DNA of 58,470 bases, taken from the IMG/VR virus record IMGVR_UViG_3300042397_002506, positions 1 through 58,470 of that record; one strand, given 5' to 3'. Positions 2,765-25,242 of the stretch are shown here, in pieces. The DNA is from a virus. Numbering within the stretch: the stretch's first letter is position 1; every line of letters begins with the position of its first letter. Under the pieces are notes generated by a model that was given only the letters and a program-made list of their open reading frames with translations, had not been told where the DNA came from and searched no databases. A program made the translations under genes and the position numbers.

Positions 2765-2812
2765 TACCAATATCTAATTTCATAAAAAGCCTAACTGGGG
2801 AGAGTGAACCGA

Positions 2813-8800: not shown

Positions 8801-11800
8801 GGCACTGCTGGTACAGATAGACCATCTATTCTATTCTCATCTGGATATAACTCAAATACTTGGTCTGCAGGTTTTGGATTTACTGATAGTAATTTTAGAA
8901 TTAAATACGATCACGGCCATAGAAACGGTAGTTGGGGTACAACTTCTCTTGAAATAGACAGAAGCAGCAACGTTTGGGCTTATGGCTCTATGCGTTCACC
9001 TATCTTCTATGACAATGATAACACTGGATACTACGGTGACTTTGCATCAACATCTAACTTAAACGCTTTAAATGCTGAAGCTACTACAGTTCGTCATCTT
9101 AACTTTAAAGGTGAAGGCGGCGATAGTGGTGTAGGTACTCGTGCTTACTCTATCTATCAAGAAGCTGGAGCTTGGTCATTCCCATATCCAGATTTAAGAA
9201 TTGCATTCCACACTGGTATTAAGTTTGGAGCAAATTCAGGCTATCAAGGCATGCGTTTTTATGATGATTATACTATGGTCACGCAGGTCATGTCTATCAA
9301 CAATGCTAATGACGCGCTTGGTGCTAATAACGTTTACGTTAATAACAGTTTGCAAGCTGGTAGTTCATTAAGAGCTCCAATCTTCTATGATTCAAATGAC
9401 ACTAATTATTATGGTGACTTTGCATCAACATCTGTTGTTAACGTTCTAAGAGCTAACCAACTACAACTTGATGGTTCTACATATACTATCGATTCTGTGT
9501 CTGATGATTATGGTTCTATTGCAGTAAACGGATATAGAAACGGTTGGGCTGGTTACTCTATTAATAATCAGTGGGTGTTTATGTCAAGTGGTCCAGGTAA
9601 TGCTGGTATCTACAACGATGTTAACAATCAATGGGCTATTTTAGCTGCGCAAACTTCAGATGTTCAAATCTTCTTCAATGGAACATGGGAAGAGCGTTCA
9701 CGTTCTGGATTTATGGAAGCTCGCGGATCTTACCGTGCACCAATCTTCTATGATTCAGATAACACAGCGTATTTAATTGATGGTAACGGCACATCAAGAC
9801 TCTTAAACCTTAACGTTGATAACGTAATTGGTGGTAGCGTTAATGGATATTCTGAATTACTCTTAAGCAGAGATAACAGAACAATTGCGCCAAGTGAAGA
9901 TCCGGCTGCCAGAATGCGTTTTGGTTTTACATCTTGGGCTAACAACGATTCGGCACCATATGCCGATTACTTGCATTTAAGATCTTATACAGATGCGTCT
10001 GGTGGTTCAGATAATCTTATAACATTCCTAAAATCCGGTATTGGAATGCGTATTAGGCAACAAACTTGGGGTTCTGGAACTGCGTATTCTACTGTTAGAA
10101 ACGTTACAATTTATAACGAAAACCCAGGCGCTGGAAATGATTTGTATGCTTCTATCTATTATGATAGCAATGATACTTCATATCGTGTAGATCCTACCGA
10201 TACATCCATTATAAGATATCTAAAAGTTAATACAGCGGGTTCAAGCTCAGGAACTCGTGCGTTAACTATTAAATCTGACGGACAAGCAGAAATTAACTTC
10301 GGGGCTTATCCCGGAAATTGGACATCCGCGCTGCAAATTCAGAATAACAACAATACTGACTTTGTGTGGATTTCTCCTCTTGATGATGGACAAAATGCAA
10401 GATTTAGAACTGGTGGGTCTGGCTTAGATATCTATACAGATGGTGGTTCTGGTGATGCTGGTACTTATTCAGCATTTATTGGTTCTGGATCTGTTCGTTC
10501 ATCAATCTTCTACGATCTAGATAATACGGGGTATTACTTAAATCTAAACGGTTCTTCAAACCATGCTGGTGATTTTAGAACTGATCAGTTTTATGCTCGT
10601 GGTTGGTTCCGCAATGATAACAGCGGCACTGGTCTTTATAACCAAGCTACTGCGATGCATTGGTATTCTGATACAAGTTCACGTTTTAGATTATACAGTA
10701 CCACATCTACATCACAGATTTTGATGGCTACAGCAGGTGATGTTGCACGTGGTTATGTTTATGCTGAAAACGATAATAGCATTGGTTTCCTTAACAACGG
10801 CGGAAGCTGGCGCATGCGAATCGTTAGCGGCGATTGGATAGACGTTGGTGGTTCAAGCATTCGTGCGCCGATATTCTATGACAACCAAGATACAACTTAT
10901 TACGTAGATCCTAACAGCAGTGCTAGAATAGCAACAGTAGGCGTTGGTCTTGCTGCCAACAACGGCGGTAAACTAAGCGTAACTGGCGGACATGGCGATT
11001 CTAATATTAGAGTAACTGCTCAAGGTAACCAATTAGGTTCTGGTGTTACTTCATCTATGCATTGGTGGGTGTCTGAACCCGGCGTTACATGGAACGAAGG
11101 TGGTTTCGGATTTAACGTAACCAACGATGGTGGTACTCCATCTGGCTTTGGACGTCCTAATACGTCTTATGGCCAAGGCTACATGAGATATACTACTGGC
11201 GGCGATATTGTTGTTTATAACACAAACACGTCTGGTACAAGATTCCAAAATATGGAATTCCTTTCAAACGGAACTGTGTATGCAAACAACTATCTAACTG
11301 GCGGCAACAGTCTTCGTGCTCCTATCTTTTACGATAGTCAAGACACTGGGTATTATAGCGATCCAAATGGCGGCAGTAGATTAAACACTACGGAAAATAT
11401 TGGCAGAGTTGGATTTAGTAATTACCTTGTAAGCCGTAATGAAGGCGGCATGATGGGTAGCTACAACGCTACTGGTACTGCAGATAAGGTAATCTGGACT
11501 ATCGGTGAAAGCTGGCCTCTTGGTAACATGTATGGTCTTGCTTATTCTTACGGCGGTTTTGGACCATTTGGAACTCAACATAAGCTTGTACTGAGAGAAA
11601 ACGGCTCTACATCTACACAATTTGGTTTTGGCGGCAATATGTATGTTGCGGGTTCTGGCGCAGCCCAAAACGACTTCCGTGCTCCTATCTTCTATGACTC
11701 AAATGATACTGCGTATTATTTTGATGGTGCAAGCGTAAACTCTACACGATTCGAAGGTGTGAGTAATAGAACAAAAGCAATGATGGGTCTACCAGGTAGA

Positions 11801-13093
11801 ACCGGATTTAGTGCGGAATATTACTCAGCAAGACCTCGTATCACTGGTGATGTAAACTACTGGACCGGCTCAATGGGCTGGGGTACGATCGATATGAACG
11901 ATCTTGCTCACTGGGGTTCTGGTTTCATTGACTCTTGGAGCAACCCTGGTAACCAACCAAGTGGTACATCACATTGGGTAGGTACGCAAGCATGGCACTA
12001 TACTGATAACGGCAATGCTCGTTATGGTTGGCAGCTAGTTGGTGGTCCAATTGGTAACCTTCGTTTCCGTCAATCATGGTCTGGCTTTAATGCATGGCGC
12101 ACAGTTCCAATGCTTGGTGTTAACGACGGTAACGGCGCTGCAATGTATGCTAACATTTATTATGATAGTGATAACACTGGTTACTACTGCGATCCGTCCG
12201 GTTCTTCAAACTTAAACCTAGATTTAACAACTGACCAGTATTACGCTCGCGGTTGGTTTAGAAATAACAACGTAAATACAGGTCTGTACAATCAGGGTAC
12301 TGGCAGCCACTGGTATTCATCAAGCTCGCAATACTGGAATGCAACTGGTAATAATAACGGCGCGGATATGAACATCCGTGGTTTAGCAGCTTATCAGGGT
12401 ACAAGTCGTTTCTGGTTGCACGGTGCAACTGATGGTTACCAAGGATTCTTGAATTCAAACGGTTCTTGGTTGTTCAGAATGTCTCACAACGCTGGCCAAT
12501 CGCCAGGTATTTGGTTCTACGAAGCTGGCGAAAGCTGGACTGGTAACATTGGTGCTGACGTTGGTAAGATTGAATACCACGCAAACCGTTTCTACATCGT
12601 GTCTGGTTCTAACTCAGATCGTATTGTGCAGTTTAGACGTGACGGTAGTGATTTCTCTTATATTGCTAACGATGGTGTATTTGTTGGTACTGCAACTTCA
12701 GCTCGTTGGGCCGACTTAGCAGAACGTTATGAAGCAGACGCTATCTATGAAGCAGGTACAGTATTAGCTATTGGTGGAGATAAAGAAGTTACTCTTTATC
12801 AACCTGGTATGCCACTTGCTGGAGCAATATCAGTTAAGCCTGCTTATCGTATGAATGATGAGAATTACGGAAACGATAATTCTATCGAATCTAAGATGAA
12901 TCCGTTTGTCGCTCTTAAGGGTCGTATTCCAGTTCTAATTAATGGTTCTGCTAAAAAGGGACAGTGGATTATTGCTGATAAAGACGGAAGAGGTAGAGCT
13001 GTAGATTACGGTACATCCGGTATAAATACGTTTGACATTATTGGTATCGCTATTGGTGATAGTAACGGCGGTGAGGTAGAAGTTAAAATATAA
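2813..13093 (+). CDS. giant repeat-rich tail fibre protein
   Basis: About 3,426 residues from the ATG at 2813, chosen because GGGGAG at 2797-2802 is 10 bases upstream; the in-frame GTG at 2804 would sit on that site. The N-terminus (MANNKKFIVKNGLESQENVVIG) is typical of marine T4-like fibre and structural proteins. The body holds about 22 copies of a motif like APIFYDSNNTAYYGDFASTS (variants: YYVDPxxxS, YYCDPSGSS) at irregular intervals of 60-200 residues, separated by beta-rich domains. The last 140 residues (ARWADLAERYEAD...GTVLAIGGDKEVTLY...GAISVKPAY) form a conserved-looking terminal domain resembling the terminal processing or chaperone domains of phage fibres; I see no proof of self-cleavage. 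One cysteine lies in the last YYCDP unit. No frameshift is apparent. Confidence 0.85.
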   Translation: MANNKKFIVKNGLESQENVVIGTTTDDGVNKLQVTGSSKLTGAVEVTQSTAATPTVKFTNSAGPSALIAEFAGTSQSVRITNFSAGDYSILNTGQSNGIRLFNDTAGLDILYNGNTDLVFNSTGIDFKRAPTYLGNVFWNAGNDGANSGLDADLIDGLDSSQFLRSDESDTMNGSLIITGNLTVQGTTTTLSTETILLADNIITLNSNYTGSTPSENAGIEVERGTLANSTFQWLEASDKWELGGPSLGLILGDTSNRQGAITSYANSFIIEAGGASGVSSGTVLLSGRLFGTAANAGVAAFHNPTTNISYGELLYNGSPRIRSESVGVTALGNSTVQGTLTVGTGSGGAYIYLDGAGTNGTIYSSAGEIGFLNASLNYALKVDTAGDVRVTDNIYAQKFIDINNNTYQVVPSVTSVLNNIDLEGSLRHNGDTDTFITFPTTGRIGFTLDGTQYGLMTNTAFQYTGDVIADRFLDRSDNAYYVDPANSSVLNTVGIDSDLFHNGDTDTKLSFATDSITLSTANVVRLTANTTALTSSLDVYAPRYYDSNNNAFYLDPASTSELNSANFYSASANNAINVGINAAQRFNIDVTSSQGYIRYIQNEIDATDHSVNFEIISGSGGLNRFNFNKNIDVGSNTITGGFGVFTSGAYASVFYDYDNEAFFADLNNTGNSINIAGTVQAGNGTLALPSYTFGSDTNTGMYRAGVDTIGFSAGGNDEFRILTTYTLSPGSSRAPIFYDSDNTAYYGDFASTSVMNRVGIDDYIQHNGNITSYFGFSANNIFKLFTNGAERLNIDDNSADFSVDVYAPRYYDSNTITYYGDFAATSVMNRIDIDDYIRHNGNTTSYFGFSANNIYKLFTNGVERLNVDDDSADFAVNVYAPQYYTNDYLIHNGDTNTYVGFDANDQFGVWTNGVKQIAVNTTAVAINLNTNITGALDVTGRATIGNSLTRPDSLAVLANSAARIGGADVHLHVASLGAAANYAVALQSGRQSDNVSFPLVMQPNGGNVGVGTLTAGATLTVNKKTAQGNNPFAAGTSLFSLGDVDVVDYSIRTDSFGNIFHVNDNGGNQIWYTSSAGGLFAILNTGDVVVNNDSTTYAVTDAATNFIATGTASNNKLHVTGSISMGSINDVISIYGADGANTAITSATFLGVNELGFSGGGGFYMNDTATVRVRGNKAISTTGDITGARFIDAGNNTYIVDPAGTSVMNRIDIDDYIRHNGDTDNYFGFAANDTFRVFTGNAQRLNIDNDSADFTVNVYAPIFYDSDNNAYYGDFGGTSNMSRIDVDDYIRHRGNTDAYFGWAGNNNFKLFTNGTERFNIDADSADFAINVYAPRYYDSNDSTYYVDPASVSIMNNVSFGVPGNGSNVKGRFLSIEGDTDASGEGSSRIFFAEHNSTTADQDKYGMALAYRGGNAAINSVTGQPTTLTGLGNGEWGLLGYDNSISGNWAMRGPRSSAYVEARGDFRAPIFYDSNNTAYYGDFASTSIMNIVRVGQLQVDDATTFIDSRAGDYGTIRVEGTTGAGSWAGYAIRDDWVFMSNGAASAGIYNDTDNEWALEAAQNSWTRLYANGVHQLSAENGYGFAPTSMRSPIFYDSDDINYFANFAAGNANNAIKVNGRIFREGFTADSGSTNTFLLAQDENQFIWNTATNWGIFWATNTSAAYRYTPFGDNMISFVGAGNLRAAIDLDNGAAYFQGAVTAADFKINGGNEDLGILKTYGSGLGDTMMFDGTEYWEKRVIKVMQGAEANATNTTAEYVKNNNGPFASTYALRTNQYRTFDSDYIPVEPGEQIYGEIAVRYISGSGGLVYMGVRRYDKDKLAIAGNDGIEYFVVGGNNVTDTNWQTFRGHTTIPSSHTPFSGSDGGACKYVRVIVLMNYPNAGGPALREYGPPVLKRVNHLSNLVTDFDLSVGGNATITGDLTVDDITSDVIDANLFRDRSNNAYYVDPYGFTNLGRDTGTVVAITKTGASTDNTLIVTNTRGDHSYGITGEFRVEGTAGTDRPSILFSSGYNSNTWSAGFGFTDSNFRIKYDHGHRNGSWGTTSLEIDRSSNVWAYGSMRSPIFYDNDNTGYYGDFASTSNLNALNAEATTVRHLNFKGEGGDSGVGTRAYSIYQEAGAWSFPYPDLRIAFHTGIKFGANSGYQGMRFYDDYTMVTQVMSINNANDALGANNVYVNNSLQAGSSLRAPIFYDSNDTNYYGDFASTSVVNVLRANQLQLDGSTYTIDSVSDDYGSIAVNGYRNGWAGYSINNQWVFMSSGPGNAGIYNDVNNQWAILAAQTSDVQIFFNGTWEERSRSGFMEARGSYRAPIFYDSDNTAYLIDGNGTSRLLNLNVDNVIGGSVNGYSELLLSRDNRTIAPSEDPAARMRFGFTSWANNDSAPYADYLHLRSYTDASGGSDNLITFLKSGIGMRIRQQTWGSGTAYSTVRNVTIYNENPGAGNDLYASIYYDSNDTSYRVDPTDTSIIRYLKVNTAGSSSGTRALTIKSDGQAEINFGAYPGNWTSALQIQNNNNTDFVWISPLDDGQNARFRTGGSGLDIYTDGGSGDAGTYSAFIGSGSVRSSIFYDLDNTGYYLNLNGSSNHAGDFRTDQFYARGWFRNDNSGTGLYNQATAMHWYSDTSSRFRLYSTTSTSQILMATAGDVARGYVYAENDNSIGFLNNGGSWRMRIVSGDWIDVGGSSIRAPIFYDNQDTTYYVDPNSSARIATVGVGLAANNGGKLSVTGGHGDSNIRVTAQGNQLGSGVTSSMHWWVSEPGVTWNEGGFGFNVTNDGGTPSGFGRPNTSYGQGYMRYTTGGDIVVYNTNTSGTRFQNMEFLSNGTVYANNYLTGGNSLRAPIFYDSQDTGYYSDPNGGSRLNTTENIGRVGFSNYLVSRNEGGMMGSYNATGTADKVIWTIGESWPLGNMYGLAYSYGGFGPFGTQHKLVLRENGSTSTQFGFGGNMYVAGSGAAQNDFRAPIFYDSNDTAYYFDGASVNSTRFEGVSNRTKAMMGLPGRTGFSAEYYSARPRITGDVNYWTGSMGWGTIDMNDLAHWGSGFIDSWSNPGNQPSGTSHWVGTQAWHYTDNGNARYGWQLVGGPIGNLRFRQSWSGFNAWRTVPMLGVNDGNGAAMYANIYYDSDNTGYYCDPSGSSNLNLDLTTDQYYARGWFRNNNVNTGLYNQGTGSHWYSSSSQYWNATGNNNGADMNIRGLAAYQGTSRFWLHGATDGYQGFLNSNGSWLFRMSHNAGQSPGIWFYEAGESWTGNIGADVGKIEYHANRFYIVSGSNSDRIVQFRRDGSDFSYIANDGVFVGTATSARWADLAERYEADAIYEAGTVLAIGGDKEVTLYQPGMPLAGAISVKPAYRMNDENYGNDNSIESKMNPFVALKGRIPVLINGSAKKGQWIIADKDGRGRAVDYGTSGINTFDIIGIAIGDSNGGEVEVKI

Positions 13094-13107: not shown

Positions 13108-13545
13108 TTGATTAGATTATGCAAGTTACTACCATTGCTTAAGCAAGAAATTATTAGCTATGACAGATATGAGTCCGGGGAACTAAAAGTAATAGGATAC
13201 CCCGGACTTCTTAATTCTGATATATCAGTTAGAGATAAGATGAGTTATTCGCAATGGCTAGAATCGTATCAAACATATCCAATAATTAAAGTAGAAGGAC
13301 TTGAAAGAGTTATCACTAGCTTTAAATCTGTACATCTATTTTACAATCAAAAGTCTCGTTATAGTTTTAAATGGCACACAGACCCAGTAGACGTTCAACT
13401 GTACGTTCTTAAGGGTACAAAGTTTCTGCAAGTAAGAGACAAGAATTACAAATTAGTAGCAGGACAATCTGCTAGAATTCCTAAGAATTATCTCCATAAA
13501 GCATACAGTATTGCTGATACTTGGGCATTGAGTACAGTATCTTGA
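13108..13545 (+). CDS. cupin/JmjC-like protein with HxD...H metal site
   Basis: A 145-residue protein. The TTG at 13108 is taken as start because AGGA lies 7 bases upstream and no early in-frame ATG precedes the conserved core. Residues H90-T-D92 followed by H130 (IPKNYLHKAYS) give the HxD...H arrangement of cupin-fold Fe(II) enzymes; the part between (LYVLKGTKFLQVRDKNYKLVAGQSARIP) fits cupin strands. A 2-oxoglutarate-binding Arg is not obvious. It is the first gene of the modification island, 14 bases after the giant fibre gene, and its stop overlaps the next start (TGATG). It may be an oxygenase or only a sugar/metal-binding cupin. Confidence 0.55.
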   Translation: MIRLCKLLPLLKQEIISYDRYESGELKVIGYPGLLNSDISVRDKMSYSQWLESYQTYPIIKVEGLERVITSFKSVHLFYNQKSRYSFKWHTDPVDVQLYVLKGTKFLQVRDKNYKLVAGQSARIPKNYLHKAYSIADTWALSTVS

Positions 13546-14300
13546 TGCAGCATATTTTTAATCCACCTGCTATAATTGCGAATGCTCCTGCTTTTAAAGA
13601 AGCACCGGCAATTCAAAAAGAACGTATTGAATTTGAAGATAAACTAAAAAGACAAATGTTTTTTGGTTCTATATCTAAAAGAGAAGCAGACGGAAGAACA
13701 TATAATTATATTGATAAAAACGGCGAGTATGTTTCTAGCTTTTTAAGTCCGTATAATGCAAACATTCTTGATAATGTAGAGCCAGAAATAAAAAATTTAA
13801 TATCGGCTTTAATAAGCAAAGGTTATTTAACAGCCGGATCTTGTCAAGGACATACCGTTGGTAAAGAAAAAAGTTTAACACGATGGGTAATGATTTCTTT
13901 TATTAGTTTGGAAGAACAAAATCGATTTATTAGTCAAATTAATAGCTTTAAATTGCCGGTGTTTTGGTATTTTAATTTTTTAAACACTGTTGAGAATCCT
14001 AAAACAGAAGAAACTAGAGACGGTAAGTCGCTATCTATAAATTTTAAAGATGTCCAGCATAAATCAACAGATGAAGCAAAACACAATAAATACACTAATA
14101 AAGACCTAGCAGATTATTGGAACATTATGTTTGCTAGGAAGTACGCAGAATATTATCCTGTAATGATGTGTATTTGCTCTTGTCCTGGCGATATATCAGT
14201 TTTAGAAAAAATTAAAACATTTATGTTTTGGCCTTTTCGAAATTACTACACTACCAAACTGACAGCTAAAATAAAGAGTATTAATAATTATGAATGGTGA
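13545..14300 (+). CDS. unknown protein of the modification island
   Basis: 251 residues from the ATG at 13545, which overlaps the upstream stop (TGATG) and so suggests translational coupling. I do not recognise a family with certainty. Visible features: an acidic/basic helical N-terminal half, the segment LISKGYLTAGSCQGHTVG near residue 105, which has the look of a ligand-binding loop with Cys and His, and MMCICSCPGDIS near residue 210. Four cysteines in two clusters could bind metal. It sits between the cupin-like gene and the first radical SAM gene and is probably co-transcribed with them. Confidence 0.6.
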   Translation: MQHIFNPPAIIANAPAFKEAPAIQKERIEFEDKLKRQMFFGSISKREADGRTYNYIDKNGEYVSSFLSPYNANILDNVEPEIKNLISALISKGYLTAGSCQGHTVGKEKSLTRWVMISFISLEEQNRFISQINSFKLPVFWYFNFLNTVENPKTEETRDGKSLSINFKDVQHKSTDEAKHNKYTNKDLADYWNIMFARKYAEYYPVMMCICSCPGDISVLEKIKTFMFWPFRNYYTTKLTAKIKSINNYEW

Positions 14301-14303
14301 AAT

Positions 14304-15362
14304 GTGAAAGATATTTTAATATATTTAAAAACAACCGAAACTTGTAATCTTAATTGCATGCATTGCTTTACTAGTGGAAGTAAAGGTGCAAAAATTTATT
14401 GGGATTATAAAAAGGTAGCAGATTGGTTGCATCGATTATCAGTCGAGATTCCGCAAACAAGTCATACTCATTTAGAGTTTCATGGCGGCGAACCGTTCTT
14501 AGCTGACCTTGAAACTATGCAATACGTATACGATGATTGCAAAGACTTGTGGACAAGCCAAAGTTGGGGTATTACAACTAACTTAACATTTAAATTAACA
14601 CAAGATAAAATAGATTTTATTCAAGGGCCGTTAGGCGGACACATTGGTACAAGCTGGGATCCTGATATTAGATTTTCCAGTCCTAAACAATATGATCTCT
14701 GGCGTAAAAACGTAGAAACATTAATTGACTTAGGCGTAACTATAAAATTGTTTGTTAGTGTAACAAAAGGCACAATAGCTATAGAGCCTATTGATTTACT
14801 AGAATGGGTTCGAGACTTAGGAGTCAAAGAATTAGCACTAGAGCGTTTAACAATGAATGGTAGTGCTAGAAATAATTTGCATATATTCCCTACTAACACA
14901 GAACAAGACAGTTGGTTCTTAAAAATGCATGAACAAAGCAAAAAAGCAGGCGCTCGAGATTGGTTTGATAATGAATTTTTCGAAAACGTATATGCTAAAT
15001 TTGAATCTGGAATGACAAAAGGTGGCACATTTTGTAGAGACTGTGAAGAGAAACTATTTACAGTTAATGCAGATGGATCTATTTCTGGATGTCCAAATAG
15101 TGCGCCAGAACATTCTTTTGGACATATTAATGATGATATACCACAATTATTGTACAGTCCAAAGCGAATAGAAAACATTGCTTGCGAAAGAAGCAGAGAT
15201 CCGAGATGTTATGAATGCCCAGTTTTTCAATATTGCGGCGGTGATTGTCATCAATTAGAATGGCAAGATGATGTTTGCGGAGCTCCAAAGAGTTTGATGC
15301 GCGAGTTAGCTGGAATAAATAGAATAAATACTAATAAAGTATTCTTAATAAAGGAATTATAA
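14304..15362 (+). CDS. radical SAM/SPASM peptide- or protein-modifying enzyme
   Basis: 352 residues from a GTG start three bases after the previous stop. The radical SAM cluster motif is C14-x3-C18-x2-C21 (ETCNLNCMHC). HGGEP (about residue 59) is the SAM-binding GGE-type motif. The C-terminal quarter has a Cys-rich SPASM region: CRDCEEKLFTVNADGSISGCPN, then ECPVFQYCGGDCHQLEW and a final Cys, enough for two auxiliary Fe-S clusters. Enzymes of this type (anaerobic sulfatase maturases, sactipeptide and HxS-type maturases) modify peptide side chains. It lies immediately upstream (1 base) of the gene for a protein with a Cys-His tail, which is the natural substrate candidate. Substrate and reaction are inferred. 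Confidence 0.85.
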   Translation: MKDILIYLKTTETCNLNCMHCFTSGSKGAKIYWDYKKVADWLHRLSVEIPQTSHTHLEFHGGEPFLADLETMQYVYDDCKDLWTSQSWGITTNLTFKLTQDKIDFIQGPLGGHIGTSWDPDIRFSSPKQYDLWRKNVETLIDLGVTIKLFVSVTKGTIAIEPIDLLEWVRDLGVKELALERLTMNGSARNNLHIFPTNTEQDSWFLKMHEQSKKAGARDWFDNEFFENVYAKFESGMTKGGTFCRDCEEKLFTVNADGSISGCPNSAPEHSFGHINDDIPQLLYSPKRIENIACERSRDPRCYECPVFQYCGGDCHQLEWQDDVCGAPKSLMRELAGINRINTNKVFLIKEL

Positions 15363-15363
15363 A

Positions 15364-15936
15364 ATGGCAGGCGGTTTAACCGATAATATTAATGCGCAGA
15401 ACGTTGTAAATAGATTTGCTGATTACGTTCGCGGAGCAGCAAATCAAGGTATTTCATGGGGAACTAACTCCTATCCTTTTGGAGAGTTTAGTGCTATTGC
15501 GTTTGTATTTGGTGGAGACACTAATGGCAAACCCATCGAAATTAGTGGTGGAAACATTAATAGCAACCCTATTACTGCTCAAACAGTATATCAAGTATTA
15601 ATTGACGAAACCACAAGATATACACGTGTTAGATTAATGCGAGCATTGCTGTTTGTCGATGGCGCCGGCGGAAATACTGGAACCCGACCAAATCCTGGAT
15701 ACGTATATGACGGCACCGCAGTAGCACATCTTAACAGTAATTACCAAGTTGGAGTTAGTGCTGGTAGAAATAACGTGTTTGCCGGAAACGTTATGACTAG
15801 AGGCGGTACCGCCGATATGTTTAACAATATGCGTGCAGCTTATAACAACATTCGTGGGCAGGCTGTAACATTTCAAGTCAACGTTTGCCATGCTAGTTGC
15901 CATAGCAATTGCCACAACTCTAGATCGAGAAGATAA
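15364..15936 (+). CDS. virion-like protein with C-terminal CHxx-CHxx-CHxx-SRxRR tail; candidate modification substrate
   Basis: 190 residues. Residues 1-170 are Gly/Asn/Ala-rich and beta-like, as in phage structural proteins (FADYVRGAANQGISWGTNSYPFGEF; TAQTVYQVL). All cysteines lie in the last 16 residues, 175-190, where three consecutive four-residue units each start Cys-His (CHAS, CHSN, CHNS) and end in SRSRR. Such a terminal Cys/His repeat is unlike a structural core and resembles a substrate tail for radical SAM chemistry; the His-x-Ser element recalls the HxsA repeat protein of the HxsABCD system, which is processed by two radical SAM enzymes. The gene begins 1 base after a SPASM enzyme gene and its stop overlaps the next start (TAATG). 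Modification is inferred, not shown. Confidence 0.75.
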   Translation: MAGGLTDNINAQNVVNRFADYVRGAANQGISWGTNSYPFGEFSAIAFVFGGDTNGKPIEISGGNINSNPITAQTVYQVLIDETTRYTRVRLMRALLFVDGAGGNTGTRPNPGYVYDGTAVAHLNSNYQVGVSAGRNNVFAGNVMTRGGTADMFNNMRAAYNNIRGQAVTFQVNVCHASCHSNCHNSRSRR

Positions 15937-16655
15937 TGAACTTTATTAAAACAACCGCACCTATTTCAATCGACAATTTAAAAAAATATTTTGTTGATAA
16001 AGACACATTTTTTCTTATTGACTACAAAAATTCTGCTTTAAATGGTAGCAAACTATTAACATATCTCAGCAATCTAGATGTGCCAGCAGACATAGATTTT
16101 ACTGGATGTTCTGATGATGAATTTTTTGAAATGACAAAAGAATATTTAAATTCGCAAACTATTTGTAACATTGCATTTTTAGAAAAAGCTGTAATAACTA
16201 TTTTAAAAGAAAAAAACGGATTATCAAATACTGAATTCTTTAAAGATTTCATATCTAAAAATTCAGTAATATTAGATGAATGGTTATCTAAAATTTATAG
16301 CTTGTCGTTATTTAATATGTATGCGATAGATGCGCCAGAGTACAAAAAATTTGTAACTGATCATCCATTAGATACTACTGATTCATTAGTTGGCATTAAT
16401 TTTGTTAGCTTATTAAAGCATGAAGAATTATATGACTTGTATCAGACAGTCGAAACAAGCAAAATGAAATATTACAAAACATATTTTGACGAATACATGT
16501 TTAAAGGTAAAAACTTGTATTCGTATTGGGCTAACGAAAACAATCCAATGTTTTTATTAACTTTTAATATAGCAGAGGGAACTATTACAGGTGATGAGTA
16601 TTTTGCGAATATAAAAGAAACAATTAAGGAGATAGAAAATGCTACACCTGTTTAA
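15936..16655 (+). CDS. unknown protein of the modification island, possible substrate-recognition partner
   Basis: 239 residues; ATG start overlapping the stop of the Cys-His-tail gene (TAATG), so the two are probably translated together. No family recognised. The sequence is acidic, rich in Phe/Tyr/Asp, mainly helical after a short alpha/beta N-terminus (TFFLIDYKNSALNGSKLLTYLSNLDVPADIDF), without a signal peptide or membrane segment and with only two scattered cysteines. Coupling to the presumed substrate gene makes a chaperone or recognition role possible, but nothing in the sequence proves it. Its last 17 bases overlap the next gene. Confidence 0.6.
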   Translation: MNFIKTTAPISIDNLKKYFVDKDTFFLIDYKNSALNGSKLLTYLSNLDVPADIDFTGCSDDEFFEMTKEYLNSQTICNIAFLEKAVITILKEKNGLSNTEFFKDFISKNSVILDEWLSKIYSLSLFNMYAIDAPEYKKFVTDHPLDTTDSLVGINFVSLLKHEELYDLYQTVETSKMKYYKTYFDEYMFKGKNLYSYWANENNPMFLLTFNIAEGTITGDEYFANIKETIKEIENATPV

Positions 16656-17682
16656 CAAAGTTTATATTGTTAGTGATTCATTAGTAAATATAAACTTTGA
16701 TAGAGTAGTTATTTCTCAGCAATATGGTAAGCAAATGCTTGAGACATTAGATAAGATTGCGTACGGAGATCTTATAGCCTACGGTGCTAATATTAATGAA
16801 GTGTTAGCAGATTCTAGCTTTCCTGAGTTTATTCAATTAATTAAAAACAAAGCTGCAGTATCCGACAAAAAGATTATAATATACGCAGATGACGCAAGCT
16901 TTTCTAAGTTTGTAGCAATGTGGTTTAAATCTATTTTTAAAAATATTTCATTAGAATCTGCTTGGCTAATATTGTCTTCGTATATTGAAAAAGAAAAGCT
17001 AATGAGAGGTTCTAGAACAAACTTATATACCGCTAATGTTGCAGATGTTTTTCCATTATTAACCGAAGAACAATTTACCAGCGATTTTACTGATGCAATA
17101 TCTCATGATTTAATTGACATTACTTCAAGTATTAGCTTTGAGATATTGCTAGCAAATTACATTAATAATAATACTTATAAAGAAGAATTAAAAAGTTCAA
17201 TAATTACTATTTTAAAAAGAGCTTTGGAAGAATTAGCTATTGAAGTAAAGTATTCGTATGTAAAGAATTTTAAAAATACTCAATATCCAATAATTGCTGA
17301 TGCCAAAAACTTCTTTACCAATTCCAGCATTTATACTGGATTGAATTTAGGCCGAGTTAGTAGCCAACATAACACAACAAATTTAACCAGTGCTACAACT
17401 GAAGATATTGCTAAGTTTAAAACTGTAGCTAATTTAATCATGTTAAACTGGGAACAATTCCAACAACAGTCAACAATTTTTTCTTTAATACAGTTTCTTG
17501 ATGTAATTAGACAAACAGAAATTACAGATGCAAACTTAGAATCGATTATCAATTTTGAAAAAAATGCTTTAGGTACAATGAGAATATATTCTTCAGCAGA
17601 CGAAGAAAAAATTAACATTTATTTTCTTAGACATGTGTTGTCTGCTGCGCCTAGTGATTTAGAAGAATATGAACTTAAATGA
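16639..17682 (+). CDS. unknown alpha/beta protein of the modification island
   Basis: 347 residues, starting at an ATG inside the end of the preceding gene with GGAG 10 bases upstream. The first 120 residues alternate strands and helices (VYIVSDSLVNINFDRVVIS, GDLIAYGANINEVL, KKIIIYADDASFSKFVAMWF), suggesting a Rossmann-like domain; the remainder is helical. There are no cysteines in any cluster pattern and no recognisable catalytic motif. It overlaps the following oxygenase gene by 14 bases. A role in the island is inferred from coupling only. Confidence 0.6.
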   Translation: MLHLFNKVYIVSDSLVNINFDRVVISQQYGKQMLETLDKIAYGDLIAYGANINEVLADSSFPEFIQLIKNKAAVSDKKIIIYADDASFSKFVAMWFKSIFKNISLESAWLILSSYIEKEKLMRGSRTNLYTANVADVFPLLTEEQFTSDFTDAISHDLIDITSSISFEILLANYINNNTYKEELKSSIITILKRALEELAIEVKYSYVKNFKNTQYPIIADAKNFFTNSSIYTGLNLGRVSSQHNTTNLTSATTEDIAKFKTVANLIMLNWEQFQQQSTIFSLIQFLDVIRQTEITDANLESIINFEKNALGTMRIYSSADEEKINIYFLRHVLSAAPSDLEEYELK

Positions 17683-18298
17683 TCAATATTATGATCGTGG
17701 TTTTTTTGCAGTAGAGTTAGACGGACTAACTAAAAGTCTTTTGTGGAATGAAATTACTACTACTAATTGGGTGCCAGATACAGTAGATGGTATTTACAAA
17801 CAAATACCAGATTGGTACAAAAGTAATGTTAACTTAAAGAATATTACTGGAGCAAATCGAGCCGATTGCGAGCGAATTATTGGTGATCATATTATGAAGC
17901 TTGCTCCAGAATCTCTATTAAATGTTGGTAATATTTTAGTAGATACTGAACCATTTCAGTTGTTTAAAAAATACTTTAAACGACATGAGTTAAAATTTGT
18001 AGATATGTGGAATGGTAGCGAAGAAATACCATATCATTTTGACACTATTAACGGGTGCGATACATTAGTACTAATATATTTAACAGATCAACACGTCTGG
18101 GATCCAAAATGGGGTGGTGCTATTTCTATGAAAAAAGAAGTAGATAATTTTGTTATATTTGAACAAGAAATATTACCTAACAATGGTACTATGCTAGTAA
18201 TTAATAATGCTAATCCGTTAGTTTATCACAAAGTTACAGCACTCAAAAATACTAACATAAATAGATATACATTTTCTTTTAATTATAATTGGTTTTAA
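17669..18298 (+). CDS. 2-oxoglutarate/Fe(II)-dependent oxygenase-like protein
   Basis: 209 residues. The double-stranded beta-helix core shows H123-F-D125 and H187 as the Fe(II) triad and R199 (NINRYTFSFNY) as the likely 2-oxoglutarate ligand; WGGAISM at 148-154 is the usual strand before the distal His. This matches prolyl-4-hydroxylase-like oxygenases, which hydroxylate protein side chains or small molecules. It resembles the C-terminal half of the gene at 19310 over its whole length (both have TTNW...K.PDWY and WNGSE..P.H.D). It overlaps the preceding gene by 14 bases and is followed after 1 base by a radical SAM gene. All key residues are present, so it is probably active. Confidence 0.85.
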   Translation: MNLNDQYYDRGFFAVELDGLTKSLLWNEITTTNWVPDTVDGIYKQIPDWYKSNVNLKNITGANRADCERIIGDHIMKLAPESLLNVGNILVDTEPFQLFKKYFKRHELKFVDMWNGSEEIPYHFDTINGCDTLVLIYLTDQHVWDPKWGGAISMKKEVDNFVIFEQEILPNNGTMLVINNANPLVYHKVTALKNTNINRYTFSFNYNWF

Positions 18299-18299
18299 T

Positions 18300-19313
18300 A
18301 TGATTGCTTCGCAGCTAATTGACATGCATAATAAGCGCCCTACGACTGGCGAAATAATTGTTACGCTGTTTGAACTCTGTAATTTGTCGTGTTTATTTTG
18401 CCCACAAGACCATGCTAGTATCGAAGGCATTGATACAATCGTAAGTAAGATAGATCAAATTAAAAGTGTAATTGATACTCTGCGCAAAAAAGGAAAAAAA
18501 GACTTTTCAATTCATCTTATGGGCGGAGAATTGTTTTCTGATGAGCTAGATGATTCTGTATTTAGAGATTACAAAACTCTTATAGACTCAATAAATACTT
18601 ATTGTATTGAACAAAACGTGCCAGTAAATATTTCAGTTGTAAGTAATTTAGTATGGCAAAAGAAAGATAGAGTTAAACGGTTTTTAGCTGATACTGATGT
18701 TAGCATTATGACTAGTTATGATCCTTCTGGCAGATTCGATAAACACTCTTTAGAAATATTTAAAGAAAATGTTGTAGAATTTAAAGATCATATTGTAACG
18801 GTAAACGTCATTATAACAAAACCTACAATAGATAAGTTTTTAAAAAATCAAATACCATTCTTTGATTATTTGTACGAAAATTTTAATGTTTATTTTGATC
18901 AATACGGACCTGAAAAAAATCAAAAGTTTTTAATGGCGACTGATTTGCAGGTCCGTGACTTTATGATTTACTTAGTAGATCACTGGCCAAACGTAATGCC
19001 AGTTACAGATTACTTTTCAAAAACAAAAAGTCAAATGACATGCATGGATACATATACAGTGATGCCTGCTGGTAAATGGGGTGGGTGTGGTCAATTCGAA
19101 GAAATAGATAAAGTAATACCAATTAAACTAGTCACTGAGCAATCGTGGCTAGATGGATATAACTGCTTAGAATGTGAGCATTTTAATAGATGCTCTCTTG
19201 GTTGTTTTATGAGCAACCATGTAAGAGATATGCGAACCCAAAAAGAATGTTGGCTAAAAGAAGTTTATGATTATGTTGACAATAAGATAACGACTGATGA
19301 GGATTCAAAATGA
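18300..19313 (+). CDS. radical SAM enzyme with C-terminal SPASM-type cysteines
   Basis: 337 residues. C27-x3-C31-x2-C34 (ELCNLSCLFC) is the canonical radical SAM cluster site, and HLMGGELF near residue 73 is the SAM-binding GGE motif. The C-terminal part carries CMDTYTVMPAGKWGGCGQF, then CLECEHFNRCSLGCFMSNHVRD and another Cys, the spacing expected of SPASM auxiliary clusters. The N-terminal 20 residues before the core are an extension. It starts 1 base after an oxygenase gene, and its stop overlaps the start of the next (ATGA). The substrate is unknown; from context, a virion protein of the same operon. Confidence 0.85.
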   Translation: MIASQLIDMHNKRPTTGEIIVTLFELCNLSCLFCPQDHASIEGIDTIVSKIDQIKSVIDTLRKKGKKDFSIHLMGGELFSDELDDSVFRDYKTLIDSINTYCIEQNVPVNISVVSNLVWQKKDRVKRFLADTDVSIMTSYDPSGRFDKHSLEIFKENVVEFKDHIVTVNVIITKPTIDKFLKNQIPFFDYLYENFNVYFDQYGPEKNQKFLMATDLQVRDFMIYLVDHWPNVMPVTDYFSKTKSQMTCMDTYTVMPAGKWGGCGQFEEIDKVIPIKLVTEQSWLDGYNCLECEHFNRCSLGCFMSNHVRDMRTQKECWLKEVYDYVDNKITTDEDSK

Positions 19314-20410
19314 TTTTAACATTAATAGAACAAAACAAAGACTTTATTGCTGAGGAAGCAATCAGCTATATTAGAAAGAAATATCCCAGTTTTAAATACG
19401 ACTACGAACTTCTAAGAAGAGATATTCATATGATAGCTGATATTTTTATGGGTGAGCTTGAATTAGAAGGTGGTGTGTATTTTTTAGATACTAGAGACGG
19501 AGTTGATTTGTCTAATGCACAAATGAACAGATATAAAAGATCTTTTACAGTATTTCGAAATCACAATATTGAAACCATTGAATGTATTGAATATGTATCA
19601 ATGTTAATTGAAAAAATATATAACAATGAAGTTATTGAAAATACGTACAATACTAAATTTCCGCAAATAAAAAATTCTAGCATACCTCAACAAGAAAATA
19701 AAACAATAAACTTCCAAGAAATTACTGGTTTGATTGTTGCTAACTCTGCAGCAGGCGCAACAAGGAACTATCACATTGAATTTATAGAAGAATACTTTGA
19801 TAAAGGATTTGTAGTTACAAAAATTCCACCTCAAATTTATGAAAAGCTTTGGGAACAAGTTCGTACAACAAACTGGATAGATGCTAAAAAGTCAACTTAT
19901 AAAAAAGTGCCAGACTGGTATCACGAAAATGAAAAACATTATGTTGATCCAACTGGATATGACAGACCCAGTTATGAAAGAAAAATTGGAGCAGACATGT
20001 TTACTAATGCTCCGCAAAGTCTTATCGATATTTCAGATGAATTGATTAAAGATCCTTTGTTTGATCCTTTAAAGATGTACCGCCCGCCTAATCCGGTAAC
20101 TAAGTATTTGCACTTTTGGAATGGAAGTGAAAACTCTCCGCACCATGTCGATGCTATTGATGGATCTGATCTAATGATTTTCTGTTATTTAACAGATGAA
20201 ACGGATTGGAAAGAAGAATGGGGTGGATATATTAACATCATGAAAGAAGTTAATTCGGAAATAACTAATACAAAAACAGTGTTGCCAAACGATGGTGTTA
20301 TGGTCCTTGTCAATAATTCAGCTCCTATTTTTAAACATGGAATTAGAAACTTGGTAAAACGAGATGTAAACAGATACACATTCATTTTCCACTATACTTG
20401 GACCTTCTAA
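19310..20410 (+). CDS. virion-type N-terminal domain fused to a 2-oxoglutarate/Fe(II) oxygenase
   Basis: 366 residues; start overlaps the upstream stop (ATGA). Residues 8-50 (NKDFIAEEAISYIRKKYPSF, then LLRRDIHMIADIF) match a motif that recurs in marine T4-like structural proteins, where it reads like NKxFIxxEAxxYI...CxRDxxxIIDA. After a linker (about 105-150), residues 155-366 are an oxygenase closely related to the one at 17669: H279-V-D281, H343 and R355 give the Fe(II) and 2-oxoglutarate ligands, and WGGYINIM precedes the distal His. The fusion suggests that the oxygenase is carried by, or acts on, a virion component. The reading of the N-terminal motif is from memory of the family. Confidence 0.8.
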   Translation: MILTLIEQNKDFIAEEAISYIRKKYPSFKYDYELLRRDIHMIADIFMGELELEGGVYFLDTRDGVDLSNAQMNRYKRSFTVFRNHNIETIECIEYVSMLIEKIYNNEVIENTYNTKFPQIKNSSIPQQENKTINFQEITGLIVANSAAGATRNYHIEFIEEYFDKGFVVTKIPPQIYEKLWEQVRTTNWIDAKKSTYKKVPDWYHENEKHYVDPTGYDRPSYERKIGADMFTNAPQSLIDISDELIKDPLFDPLKMYRPPNPVTKYLHFWNGSENSPHHVDAIDGSDLMIFCYLTDETDWKEEWGGYINIMKEVNSEITNTKTVLPNDGVMVLVNNSAPIFKHGIRNLVKRDVNRYTFIFHYTWTF

Positions 20411-20428
20411 TTCAACCATAAATATACT

Positions 20429-21499
20429 ATGGAATTGATAATTAAACCAACTGAACGATGCAATTTTAAATGTACATTTTGCTCTTCAACTCGTATTACA
20501 GAAGATAAAACTGACGAGTTGTCGCATGATACTATATTTGAATTTTTAGAACGTTTTCCAGAAACAAACACTATAATTGTTAACGGTGGCGATCCGTTAA
20601 TGATGTGTCCTGGATACTACTGGAAAATTATCGAGTATCTTGATGAAAAAGAAATGCCTACTACTATCAGTTTTACTAGTAACTTGTGGCCGTTCTATAA
20701 AAATCCTAACAAATGGAAAGAATTATTTAATCATCCGAGATTAGGTATTACCACAAGTTTCCAATACGGCGGTGGTAGACTCAAAGGCGATTTGTCGGAG
20801 TTTAGTGAAGAAGATTTTTGGGCAGTTAGTGACGCTATGTTAGAGCATGTTGGATATAGACCAGACTTTATTAGCGTAATTACTAAAGAAAATGAACATT
20901 TGGCTATTAAGAATGTTGAATTAGCAAAGCGAATGGGAGTTGAATGCAAACTAAACTATGCATTTAGTAGTGGTCCACCTGTAAAATTTAAAAACATTAC
21001 TATGGGGCAAGAAGGTCAACCTTATATGCTAGCTGACATATATGAAATTTATGTTAAAGTTTGGCAGTTAGGTTTGACTGAATGGGAATATAATACAAAG
21101 CAAATGGTAAAACGTTTAAAGGGACATAGCACCACTTGCCCACAAAGTAGAAATTGTGATTCTAATATTAGAACTTTACAGCCAAGCGGAGACTACTACA
21201 GTTGTGGTTCGTTTGGAGATGATAGACAATATGCTATAGACTTTAAAAAAGAAATGGCTGGAGAAAAAATATATCCACTCAGATTTCAGCTAGAATTGCA
21301 AAATTTAAAAGAAAGTTGCTACACGTGTCCAATGTTTCAAATTTGTAATGGTTGCAAAAAGACTATCAAAGATTTAAAGGTTCACGGATTAGTAGAAAAA
21401 CATTGTGCTAAAATGAAAACGCTAGCTCCGTTAATAATCGAATCAAACAATATGACTGGTATGATGGAAATAACACCGTATTTAAACGAAAATGTCTAA
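20429..21499 (+). CDS. radical SAM/SPASM enzyme
   Basis: 356 residues. C11-x3-C15-x2-C18 (ERCNFKCTFC) is at the very N-terminus, VNGGDP near residue 52 replaces the usual GGE, and the C-terminal third has CPQSRNC, CGSFGDD, then CYTCPMFQICNGCKK and a final HC, a full SPASM-like set. These enzymes act on peptide or protein side chains. The 18-base gap before the gene contains CATAAATA only 4 bases from the ATG, so there is little room for a ribosome site; a leaderless transcript or readthrough are both possible. The gene is followed by another radical SAM gene 6 bases downstream. Confidence 0.85.
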   Translation: MELIIKPTERCNFKCTFCSSTRITEDKTDELSHDTIFEFLERFPETNTIIVNGGDPLMMCPGYYWKIIEYLDEKEMPTTISFTSNLWPFYKNPNKWKELFNHPRLGITTSFQYGGGRLKGDLSEFSEEDFWAVSDAMLEHVGYRPDFISVITKENEHLAIKNVELAKRMGVECKLNYAFSSGPPVKFKNITMGQEGQPYMLADIYEIYVKVWQLGLTEWEYNTKQMVKRLKGHSTTCPQSRNCDSNIRTLQPSGDYYSCGSFGDDRQYAIDFKKEMAGEKIYPLRFQLELQNLKESCYTCPMFQICNGCKKTIKDLKVHGLVEKHCAKMKTLAPLIIESNNMTGMMEITPYLNENV

Positions 21500-21505
21500 T
21501 ATATT

Positions 21506-22414
21506 ATGAACATTAGCGTTAACCCTACATACTACTGCAATTTTAGATGCGATTTTTGTTATTTAACACCAGAACAATTATCCGATCGAGCTCTATTATC
21601 ACTTGATTCACTATCAGAAAAATTAGCAGAAATTATATCTCACACTAATATAGATATGGTAGACATATATGGTGGAGAAATTGGACTGCTGTCAGAATCT
21701 TATTGGAATAACTTAATTTCAATACTTTATTCTTATGGTATAGATGATATAAATTTAATAACAAACTTATCAATGTTAAATGTCGTAACAGAAGATGATA
21801 GAGTACACACTTCTGTCAGTTATGATTTTGAGGCAAGAGAATCATCCGATAAAGTATGGAGAAATATGGCATTGTTAAACAAACCATTTTCTGTTTTGAT
21901 GCTAGCGTCGCCATCACTTATTAAGCAAGACGTTGACTATATGGTTAACATGTTTAATACATTAGGTAATTTAATATCGGTGGAAATTAAACCGTACAGC
22001 GCAAATCAAGCCAATCAATTACAAGTTTCTTATACAGAGTATGAAGAGTTTGTTAAAAAATGGATTGAAAATAAAAATAAAAAGTTTCAACTAAACAATA
22101 TACACCTGTTAAATTCAGTAGTAGATGCAAGTCGCAATAGTTTTTCAGATGATCACGTATATATAACACCATCTGGCAACTACGGTGTACTAGAGTTTGA
22201 TCTAAACGAAAATGAATTTTTTAAAGAATACAAAACATTTAAAGAATATCTCCAATGGTGTAATTTAGAAAAGGTTAGAGTATCAAATAATAAATTTTGT
22301 TCAAAATGTGACTACTATGGCAAATGTCTTTCAGAGCATTTACGTGATGTAAAGAATGTAAAAAACAGCTGTAATGGATTTGTAAACCTTATTAAATGGT
22401 ATGAAGATAAATAA
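21506..22414 (+). CDS. radical SAM enzyme with a shortened SPASM region
   Basis: 302 residues. C11-x3-C15-x2-C18 (YYCNFRCDFC) and IYGGEIG (about residue 55) mark the radical SAM domain. The C-terminal part keeps WCNLEKV, CSKCDYYGKCLSEHLRD and one further Cys, fewer than in the other three paralogues, so probably one auxiliary cluster. Overall similarity to the other island enzymes seems low apart from motifs, so this is a distinct subfamily rather than a recent duplicate. The ribosome site is poor, which suggests translation coupled to the upstream gene 6 bases away. Confidence 0.8.
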   Translation: MNISVNPTYYCNFRCDFCYLTPEQLSDRALLSLDSLSEKLAEIISHTNIDMVDIYGGEIGLLSESYWNNLISILYSYGIDDINLITNLSMLNVVTEDDRVHTSVSYDFEARESSDKVWRNMALLNKPFSVLMLASPSLIKQDVDYMVNMFNTLGNLISVEIKPYSANQANQLQVSYTEYEEFVKKWIENKNKKFQLNNIHLLNSVVDASRNSFSDDHVYITPSGNYGVLEFDLNENEFFKEYKTFKEYLQWCNLEKVRVSNNKFCSKCDYYGKCLSEHLRDVKNVKNSCNGFVNLIKWYEDK

Positions 22415-22415
22415 T

Positions 22416-22826
22416 ATGGAAGAATGGAAAATTAGACAAGAAATTTATCATCGAATAAACACTGAGTATTCTGATGATCTCAAAAAATTTAATATTGAAC
22501 TAACTAATGATATTGTAGGCGATGCTATAAGATACTTCTATGACAGAAATATTGGGTGGGTTTATCCATCTAAGTCATATATGGTTGCTATATGTTATGC
22601 TCGATGGCTAGAACACTATTTTGGTGGCGATGTATATGACTATCTTAATGATCCGGAATTACTGCATGGAAACGACCCTTATTTTGTAGAATATAGTAAA
22701 GACCCTAAAACATATCACAAAATATTAGCAGTTGTTACATGGGAATTTAATGAAAATTCAGGATTAGTACCTGATGTGAAAGAATACTTTTTGAAGGAAT
22801 TTTTAATTGATGAACCCGGGATTTAA
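22416..22826 (+). CDS. unknown protein of the modification island
   Basis: 136 residues from the ATG just after the upstream stop; an in-frame ATG at 22401 would overlap the previous gene by 14 bases and cannot be excluded. The protein is aromatic and acidic (YFYDRNIGWVYPSKSYMVAICYARWLEHYFGGDVYDYLNDPELLHGNDPYF), soluble, and mainly helical. No family recognised. It overlaps the oxygenase gene downstream by 17 bases, so the two are probably co-translated. Confidence 0.6.
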   Translation: MEEWKIRQEIYHRINTEYSDDLKKFNIELTNDIVGDAIRYFYDRNIGWVYPSKSYMVAICYARWLEHYFGGDVYDYLNDPELLHGNDPYFVEYSKDPKTYHKILAVVTWEFNENSGLVPDVKEYFLKEFLIDEPGI

Positions 22827-23379
22827 CGAACTGTGGCCTACGACAGTATACTTAGGTAAAATTGAAGATGAAACTTTGCTTTCCAGAGTATGCGATGCAA
22901 TTTTTACTGAAGTTGATTTAACAAATCCGCCTAACGATTTTCACGAATATGATATACTTCGTGATGGATCTGAAGTATTCCAAGAATTTCGTGATAAGGT
23001 TGTATGGCCAGCATTTGAAAAATACTTGTTAAACTGGAACATTGATATAAATGATTTTGAAGAAAGACGAGTAAGAGCTTGGCTTACCGGCAGTTATACC
23101 GGATATGCCATGCCAGTTCATAATCATAGCGGATCTCCAATTAGCTCAGTATTTTACCTCATGAATGAAGAACAACAAGCTGGCGGAGAACTAGTATTAA
23201 TGGATCCTCGTCATAATGCAAATAGAGGCTACCAAGAAGAATTTAAGTCCATGTTTGAAAATCAATGCTATACACCTAAATCTGGCGAATTTACCATGTT
23301 TCCTGGGTTCGTTTATCACCATACTTTGCCTTTTAAGGGAAAAATCCGATTGGCAATGCCCGTTGATCTATTTCTATAA
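22810..23379 (+). CDS. TIGR02466-like 2-oxoglutarate/Fe(II) oxygenase
   Basis: 189 residues from the ATG at 22810 (a TTG lies directly before it). HNHSGSPISSVFYL (H104, H106), GGELVLMDPR (126-134), SGEFTMFPGFVYHHT (H170/H171) and KIRLAMPVD (R180) follow the pattern of the putative oxygenase family TIGR02466, in which the first metal motif is HxH rather than HxD. It is not similar to the two other oxygenases of the island beyond the fold. It is the last gene of the island; a pair of late-promoter boxes starts at its stop codon. Confidence 0.8.
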   Translation: MNPGFNELWPTTVYLGKIEDETLLSRVCDAIFTEVDLTNPPNDFHEYDILRDGSEVFQEFRDKVVWPAFEKYLLNWNIDINDFEERRVRAWLTGSYTGYAMPVHNHSGSPISSVFYLMNEEQQAGGELVLMDPRHNANRGYQEEFKSMFENQCYTPKSGEFTMFPGFVYHHTLPFKGKIRLAMPVDLFL

Positions 23380-23816: not shown

Positions 23817-23834
23817 TAACAAAAGGAATCTGTC

Positions 23835-25237: not shown

Positions 25238-25242
25238 TACGT

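Follow-up and report, generated by a model that had tools for sequence, protein, structure and literature searches.

We analyzed a 58,470-nucleotide stretch of viral DNA, positions 1 to 58,470 of the IMG/VR record IMGVR_UViG_3300042397_002506 (hereafter the window), and focused on an island at 13108-23379 in which radical SAM (rSAM) enzymes and 2-oxoglutarate (2OG)/Fe(II) oxygenases accompany a protein with a cysteine- and histidine-rich C-terminal tail, the product of the gene starting at 15364. We call this protein TAIL and the island, with its homologs elsewhere, the cassette; other genes are referred to by their start positions or as rSAM-A to rSAM-D (Table 1). The window is the structural region of a T4-like phage: a tail fiber gene (477-2753) and a giant fiber gene are followed by the island, a pair of DUF7936 genes and sugar genes, and further along by neck and sheath-stabilizer genes, terminase, sheath, tube, portal, S77 prohead protease, scaffold, and major head protein. 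Lying after the fiber genes and before the head-tail adaptor, head closure, and sheath-stabilizer genes, the island occupies the position of a T4-like host recognition cluster. As an earlier reading of the window (the original prediction) had claimed, it consists of 13 co-directional, mostly overlapping open reading frames (ORFs) on the + strand, directly behind the giant fiber gene; 7 of the 12 junctions overlap, the rest span 1-18 bases, and intergenic distances range from -25 to +18 bases.

The window's own TAIL protein, of ∼190 residues, ends in VCHASCHSNCHNSRSRR. Across the family, the last 16 residues read CHxSCHxxCHxxRxRR followed by a stop and are almost invariant. Among 63 aligned proteins (1953 pairs), median pairwise identity was 28% for the body (minimum 8%) and 81% for the C-terminal tail (minimum 62.5%), and each of the ten invariant columns fell inside the final 16 residues. 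Positions outside the pattern were also kept, namely Ser -9 in 140 of 167 proteins (Asn or Ala in the others), Ser -5 in 152 of 167, and Gly -3 in 155 of 167. The Cys-His tail that had been noted on the 15364 product is present and is the most conserved element of the island. Family members are folded proteins of 130-300 residues; AlphaFold predicted a confident alpha/beta body for TAIL (mean predicted local distance difference test score, pLDDT, 86; predicted template modeling score, pTM, 0.80) and a low-confidence C-terminal tail. At E < 0.001, the body matched only phage proteins in BFVD, including a 296-residue protein of Atu_ph07, the length of gp170 of that phage. We also considered many unrelated bodies sharing one tail; however, single linkage gathered 156 of the 164 bodies into a single, very diverged group, and our claim is accordingly one of divergence rather than unrelatedness.

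A DNA-level scan of IMG/VR for C-H-x-S-C-H-x-x-C-H-x-x-R-x-R-R, with no stop codon demanded, gave at least 142 matches in at least 119 stretches, where ∼0.05 would be expected by chance for an assumed mean contig of 20 kb. The reading frames of nearly all of the 142 matches listed stop exactly after RxRR; among them, two (L043 and L057 in our locus numbering) run past this point and are clear chance matches, and one (L113) is truncated where its contig stops. When bacterial and archaeal genomes (257 Gb) were scanned, the pattern was found in 23 stretches, ∼14 of them genuine tails; in the remainder the frame mostly continues past RxRR, providing an internal control. Homologs of TAIL adjoin rSAM-A in Pseudomonas phage pPa_SNUABM_DT01, Agrobacterium phage Atu_ph07, Sinorhizobium phage Phosso, and Burkholderia phages SURPRISE13 and FLC6, with differing bodies and an ending of the same kind. 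In the phages collection, rSAM-A or rSAM-C otherwise occurred in just seven records.

We followed the linkage of enzymes and TAIL in both directions, with homology groups taken from hidden Markov models (HMMs) built on window and named-phage proteins; the locus sets share contigs (some appear under two locus identifiers), and the counts are phylogenetically non-independent. Starting from the tail, the HMM search found rSAM homologs in 94 of 119 loci among the matches listed. A whole-contig search of loci with none or few rSAM genes returned phrog_1802 in 18 of 21; this profile is generic for rSAM enzymes, so only strong matches were counted (16 at E <= 1e-19), and the three contigs lacking a match are 5.6, 7.2, and 18 kb long. 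Starting from rSAM-A, a protein-based search gave 71 loci, 55 of them with 9 kb downstream. TAIL, rSAM-B, g15936, and g16639 were each present in 52 of the 55, rSAM-C in 51, rSAM-D in 50, and the cupin gene in 49. The three loci without TAIL are explained by their contigs: L218 and L225 end where their sisters L217 and L219 hold the TAIL gene, ∼6 kb upstream of rSAM-A, and L221 begins inside rSAM-A. The core order is cupin, rSAM-A, TAIL, g15936, g16639, rSAM-B, rSAM-C, and rSAM-D, and the 2OG genes differ in number and position. Thus the co-occurrence in metagenomic phage contigs proved near-universal, and at no locus were the enzymes seen on their own among metabolic genes.

This arrangement bears on the idea of the rSAM genes as auxiliary metabolic genes that serve host Fe-S or cofactor metabolism and have no relation to the virion. 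A TARA T4-like marine contig with 12 rSAM genes was read in this way, as Fe-S metabolism (PMC5332604). We regard it as highly improbable here, given that the order around a TAIL gene of the structural region is fixed in several phage lineages with no link to metabolic genes, and that the SPASM architecture is typical of peptide-modifying enzymes.

Two observations concern variant layouts. A marine group carries two tandem TAIL genes directly behind the giant fiber gene, and our search for cultured relatives of this class found none; on a 133-kb phage contig (L070:11753-13464), two consecutive TAIL genes have bodies unlike the main group. Separately, two dihydrofolate-reductase-like genes lie within Burkholderia phage cassettes (L008:20394-21571); they were published as nucleotide metabolism and may belong to the TAIL pathway.

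The enzymes largely matched the original prediction. All four rSAM proteins match phrog_1802 (E 1e-40 to 3e-68) and, when aligned with named-phage homologs, share an invariant C-x3-C-x2-C motif. Full SPASM cysteines were seen in 14304, 18300, and 20429; however, 21506 lacks the first pair, which makes it SPASM/twitch-like with one auxiliary site. Three 2OG/Fe(II) oxygenase-like proteins were borne out, the H-x-D...H...R motifs of 17669 and 19310 being kept across homologs and 22807 passing Pfam 2OG-FeII_Oxy_5 with a conserved H...H...R, and the cupin-like assignment of 13108 likewise held. Four proteins had been called orphans: three of them (15936, 16639, and 22401) match PHROG families, and only the 13521 family is rare (7 ORFs among ∼130 loci). 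The predicted model of g15936 is confident (pLDDT 93), with no clear fold match in the PDB and no profile similarity to the rSAM proteins; we rejected a degenerate rSAM because low-Z alignments to SuiB and the anaerobic sulfatase-maturating enzyme (anSME) were accompanied by a profile-comparison probability of 0.2%. The extra N-terminal ∼150 residues of the 19310-20410 oxygenase weakly resemble the short tail fiber family phrog_4527 (E 6e-4).

We compared the cassette with known rSAM systems. In rSAM-SPASM peptide maturation cassettes (PapB, DynA, and the Haft/Basu type), enzymes cluster next to a precursor whose C-terminus is conserved and contains Cys. The same is seen here: TAIL adjoins rSAM-A and has an almost invariant core, as expected of the precursor in rSAM-dependent maturation of ribosomally synthesized and post-translationally modified peptides (RiPPs). 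Unlike those systems, the present cassette combines four rSAM and several 2OG enzymes with a folded candidate substrate of 130-300 residues, lies in a structural gene region, and is found mostly in phages. Ranthipeptide PapB and dynobactin DynA were the best NCBIfam matches; however, scores of 56 of 340 and 46 of 450 bits are far under the cut-offs, and we do not place the enzymes in either family. Like the cassette, the His-Xaa-Ser (HxsA/B/C/D) system has rSAM enzymes that occur in pairs and an H-x-S repeat at a protein C-terminus. The unit here is instead C-H-x-S, with a period of four and a fixed RxRR end; the scores fell below the cut-offs for HxsB (34 of 370 bits) and HxsC (30 of 268 bits), so we rejected membership, and no HxsA-type repeat protein was recognized, 15364 having no NCBIfam match at E 1.

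The comparison with anSME raises a specific alternative, that one rSAM converts the last tail cysteine into formylglycine, placing a reactive aldehyde on the virion. Like the cassette enzymes, anSME has an rSAM-SPASM architecture, and it works on protein Cys or Ser. The tail sequence C-H-x-S-R resembles the sulfatase motif C-x-P-S-R, with an invariant Cys and Arg four residues apart, and of the solved structures anSME comes nearest to the rSAM profile (E 8e-15), as it usually does for SPASM enzymes. In anSME, Asp277 follows Cys276 and is catalytic; the four phage enzymes have Pro, Gly, Gly, or no residue in its place. With this key Asp absent from all four, an anSME-type reaction is disfavored; there is, moreover, no sulfatase, and several enzymes occur rather than one. 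We consider formylglycine formation extremely improbable.

We then examined the genes around the cassette, which occurs in T4-like, Rak2-like, and phiKZ-like phages behind fiber, baseplate, or virion genes. In phiKZ-like and Rak2-like phages, the genes ahead of it encode tail-fiber or virion proteins; in T4-like phages, they encode fiber-like giants or phrog_358 proteins. The window's giant fiber product terminates in INTFDIIGIAIGDSNGGEVEVKI, and fiber genes preceding other cassettes share this ending. All cultured hosts found for cassette phages are Gram-negative. For Atu_ph07, a virion study by electrospray ionization tandem mass spectrometry assigns most virion proteins to three clusters of coding sequences, CDS 31-76, CDS 170-215, and CDS 284-329 (PMC6102473); the record's numbering fits that of the study (gp198 portal, gp215 major head protein). 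Its TAIL-type protein, gp170, beside the rSAM gp171, stands at the boundary of the cluster CDS 170-215. The case for gp170 in Atu_ph07 virions is thus strong but indirect, resting on the stated cluster boundary.

The same context allows two further alternatives to be weighed. In the first, the C-terminal tail stays unmodified and serves its virion protein as a redox peptide or as a ligand for Zn, Fe, or Cu, and the enzymes modify the neighboring fiber or another target. Metal sites do occur in virion proteins, the three Cys-His pairs with their spacing of four residues would form a natural one, and fiber genes are the most constant neighbors of the cassette. However, in most cassettes the direct neighbor of rSAM-A and g15936 is the TAIL gene and not the fiber gene, even across differing fiber families, and the only loci lacking TAIL are those at which a contig stops; for the invariant Ser and for RxRR, in addition, a role in metal binding is not obvious. 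We judge this explanation unlikely. In the second, the tail is a sacrificial scaffold on which a small molecule is built and released against hosts or rival phages. There is precedent for rSAM/2OG pathways in which many enzymes work on a peptide scaffold, with pyrroloquinoline quinone (PQQ), mycofactocin, and 3-thiaglutamate as scaffold-type examples, and the 2OG genes vary in number and order as tailoring genes do. Nevertheless, the cassette has no constant transporter or peptidase, its neighbors are fiber and structural genes in phages and S74 fiber genes in bacteria, and gp170 bounds a virion cluster defined by mass spectrometry, making a released product very unlikely.

Several of the genuine genome matches belong to Bdellovibrionota. 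Their cassettes are chromosomal, flanked by acyl-CoA dehydrogenase or by COX1 and SecA, and these neighbors rule out a purely phage-borne cassette. Seven Bdellovibrionota genomes with a cassette each carry only 1-4 Peptidase_S74 matches. In five of the seven, a gene for this tail-fiber chaperone (PF13884, above the cut-off) is found no more than 15 kb from the cassette (chance ∼2e-8 in a simple model, for a distance picked after the data had been seen). Prepilin N-termini on the S74 neighbors passed the Pfam cut-off in two genomes, missed it in one, and were present as the motif only in two. Bdellovibrio uses S74 fibers on prey, and the paper on these mosaic adhesive trimer (MAT) fibers makes no mention of radical SAM (PMC10769870). 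MAT fibers carry the S74 chaperone on prey-directed fibers and predator cassettes adjoin S74 proteins; unlike MAT fibers, the cassette-adjacent proteins are shorter, several with prepilin N-termini. Some Bdellovibrionota cassettes (L227:629-2308 and L231:13568-15277) also encode radical SAM proteins of the B12-binding type, which possibly add an extra, methylating step not seen in the window's own cassette. A further protein of ∼190 residues lies beside the S74 genes (L231:10929-11525, L151:1563-2153, L226:17698-18324, and L243:4333-4884) and ends in NRHWVKVK at the L151 and L243 loci, with an almost identical ending in L231.

Overall, we consider it probable that the cassette serves to mature a virion protein post-translationally, and that the finished product helps the fiber or baseplate end to grip a Gram-negative host. 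On sequence grounds, TAIL is a well-supported candidate for both substrate and virion component. The proposed RiPP-like maturation of 15364 finds support in the two-way linkage and the invariant tail on a diverged body, and its place in the virion or fiber in the fiber, baseplate, or virion genes ahead of the cassette in unrelated phages and in the position of gp170. TAIL would be made with an unmodified C-terminus, and g15936 and g16639 would probably bind, present, or hold it. The four rSAM enzymes, the JmjC-like cupin, and the variable 2OG set would act on Cys, His, Ser, and perhaps Arg of the tail, with radical cross-links, C-H functionalization, and hydroxylation of the C-H-x-S units as candidate chemistry; the period of four would suit iterative Cys-to-neighbor cross-links, and equally other chemistry. 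Finished TAIL would be mounted at the fiber or baseplate end, where it would meet and help grip the Gram-negative envelope, and in predatory Bdellovibrionota a chromosomal version would work beside S74 fiber proteins. More tentatively, and with somewhat more doubt than confidence, we suggest a class of enzymatic particle-protein maturation not recognized before, in which phages and predatory bacteria share a radical pathway that turns the C-H-x-S tail into a special peptide at the fiber end, a common device for gripping or piercing Gram-negative envelopes.

Several points weigh against the maturation of a virion adhesion protein. An unmodified tail that binds metal would also account for the conserved Cys and His. 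A search of Pfam matched no RiPP recognition element (RRE) or PqqD-like leader-binding domain. The TAIL body had no match among PDB structures that would place it on the particle, and the argument from gp170 depends on a cluster boundary. The S74 distance was chosen retrospectively, and strict tails are rare in Bdellovibrionota, occurring in 5 of 291 genomes. Two more, reached via g15936, have the variant tails YCHSNHCSHSNHGSRGRR and ICHSNCYTPPPKSRSRR; these retain SRxRR, so the strict pattern undercounts.

The original prediction knew of no phage system with this set. Multi-rSAM phages are in fact already in print, including 332-Vera ("highly unusual"), RP12/RP31, and pelagimyophages (PMC7029224), but without a substrate. 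In the last of these, rSAM cassettes were noted, unexplained, in the host recognition cluster, at a position matching that of the cassette (PMC7029224); taken together, the pelagimyophage and cyanomyophage clusters and those of 332-Vera, RP12/RP31, and the TARA contig share with the cassette a wealth of rSAM genes and a location between fibers and neck or in the structural cluster, and were published as unusual or as metabolic genes. In the literature searched, which did not cover subscription journals and preprints, four typical tail strings appeared in no paper, and no substrate, C-terminal tail, or role had been published for phage rSAM clusters. The cassette would represent a variant form of rSAM-dependent peptide maturation in a setting that we found described nowhere. 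With a concrete candidate substrate, the question becomes open to experiment, as the mass of a short tail can be measured in virions of the cultured phages with TAIL (Atu_ph07, FLC6/FLC8, SURPRISE13, pPa_SNUABM_DT01, and Phosso). If correct, our interpretation would mean multi-enzyme radical maturation of a virion protein, probably with new rSAM and 2OG peptide chemistry; it would give a reason for the Fe-S assembly genes in some such phages and connect the attachment of phages with that of the Bdellovibrio type via a single molecular component. The cassette may reveal a new way of building parts that grip another bacterium.

Table 1. Coordinates of the cassette features and of the fiber gene ahead of them in the window
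Feature	Position	Strand	Basis
Giant fiber gene, 3429 residues, directly upstream of cassette	2804..13093	+	
Cupin/JmjC-like protein, H90-x-D92...H130, usual first cassette gene	13108..13545	+	homolog conservation
Accessory protein, present in few cassettes	13521..14300	+	
rSAM-A, radical SAM, full SPASM cysteines, normally directly 5' of TAIL gene	14304..15362	+	
TAIL protein, likely substrate, folded alpha/beta body and disordered C-terminal tail	15364..15936	+	
Near-invariant C-terminal tail C-H-A-S-C-H-S-N-C-H-N-S-R-S-R-R, then stop codon	15886..15933	+	
g15936, phrog_20767, conserved partner protein, usually directly 3' of TAIL	15936..16655	+	
g16639, phrog_36207, conserved partner protein	16639..17682	+	
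2OG/Fe(II) oxygenase, H123-x-D125...H187...R199	17669..18298	+	
rSAM-B, radical SAM, SPASM cysteines	18300..19313	+	
2OG/Fe(II) oxygenase, N-terminally extended, H279-x-D281...H343...R355	19310..20410	+	
rSAM-C, radical SAM, SPASM cysteines; ∼60% identity to distant jumbo-phage versions	20429..21499	+	
rSAM-D, radical SAM, reduced SPASM/twitch region	21506..22414	+	
Conserved protein, phrog_20737	22401..22826	+	
2OG/Fe(II) oxygenase, PF13759, phrog_81	22807..23379 (ATG at 22810)	+	

Outside the cassette, a 1335-residue protein without a PHROG match at 1e-5 is encoded between the sheath stabilizer and terminase genes of the window (31142-35149). The tandem DUF7936 genes (PF25590, phrog_7802) lie directly behind the cassette in the window (23430-24164); in L013, L015, L042, L044, and L079, the DUF7936 block is found ahead of the cassette on the opposite strand. 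The sugar block that follows in the window (24200-27239) comprises a gene that matches nothing in Pfam, a protein with weak glycosyltransferase likeness, and a fusion of a cytidylyltransferase with a mannose-6-phosphate-isomerase-type cupin, and might serve to glycosylate the particle.

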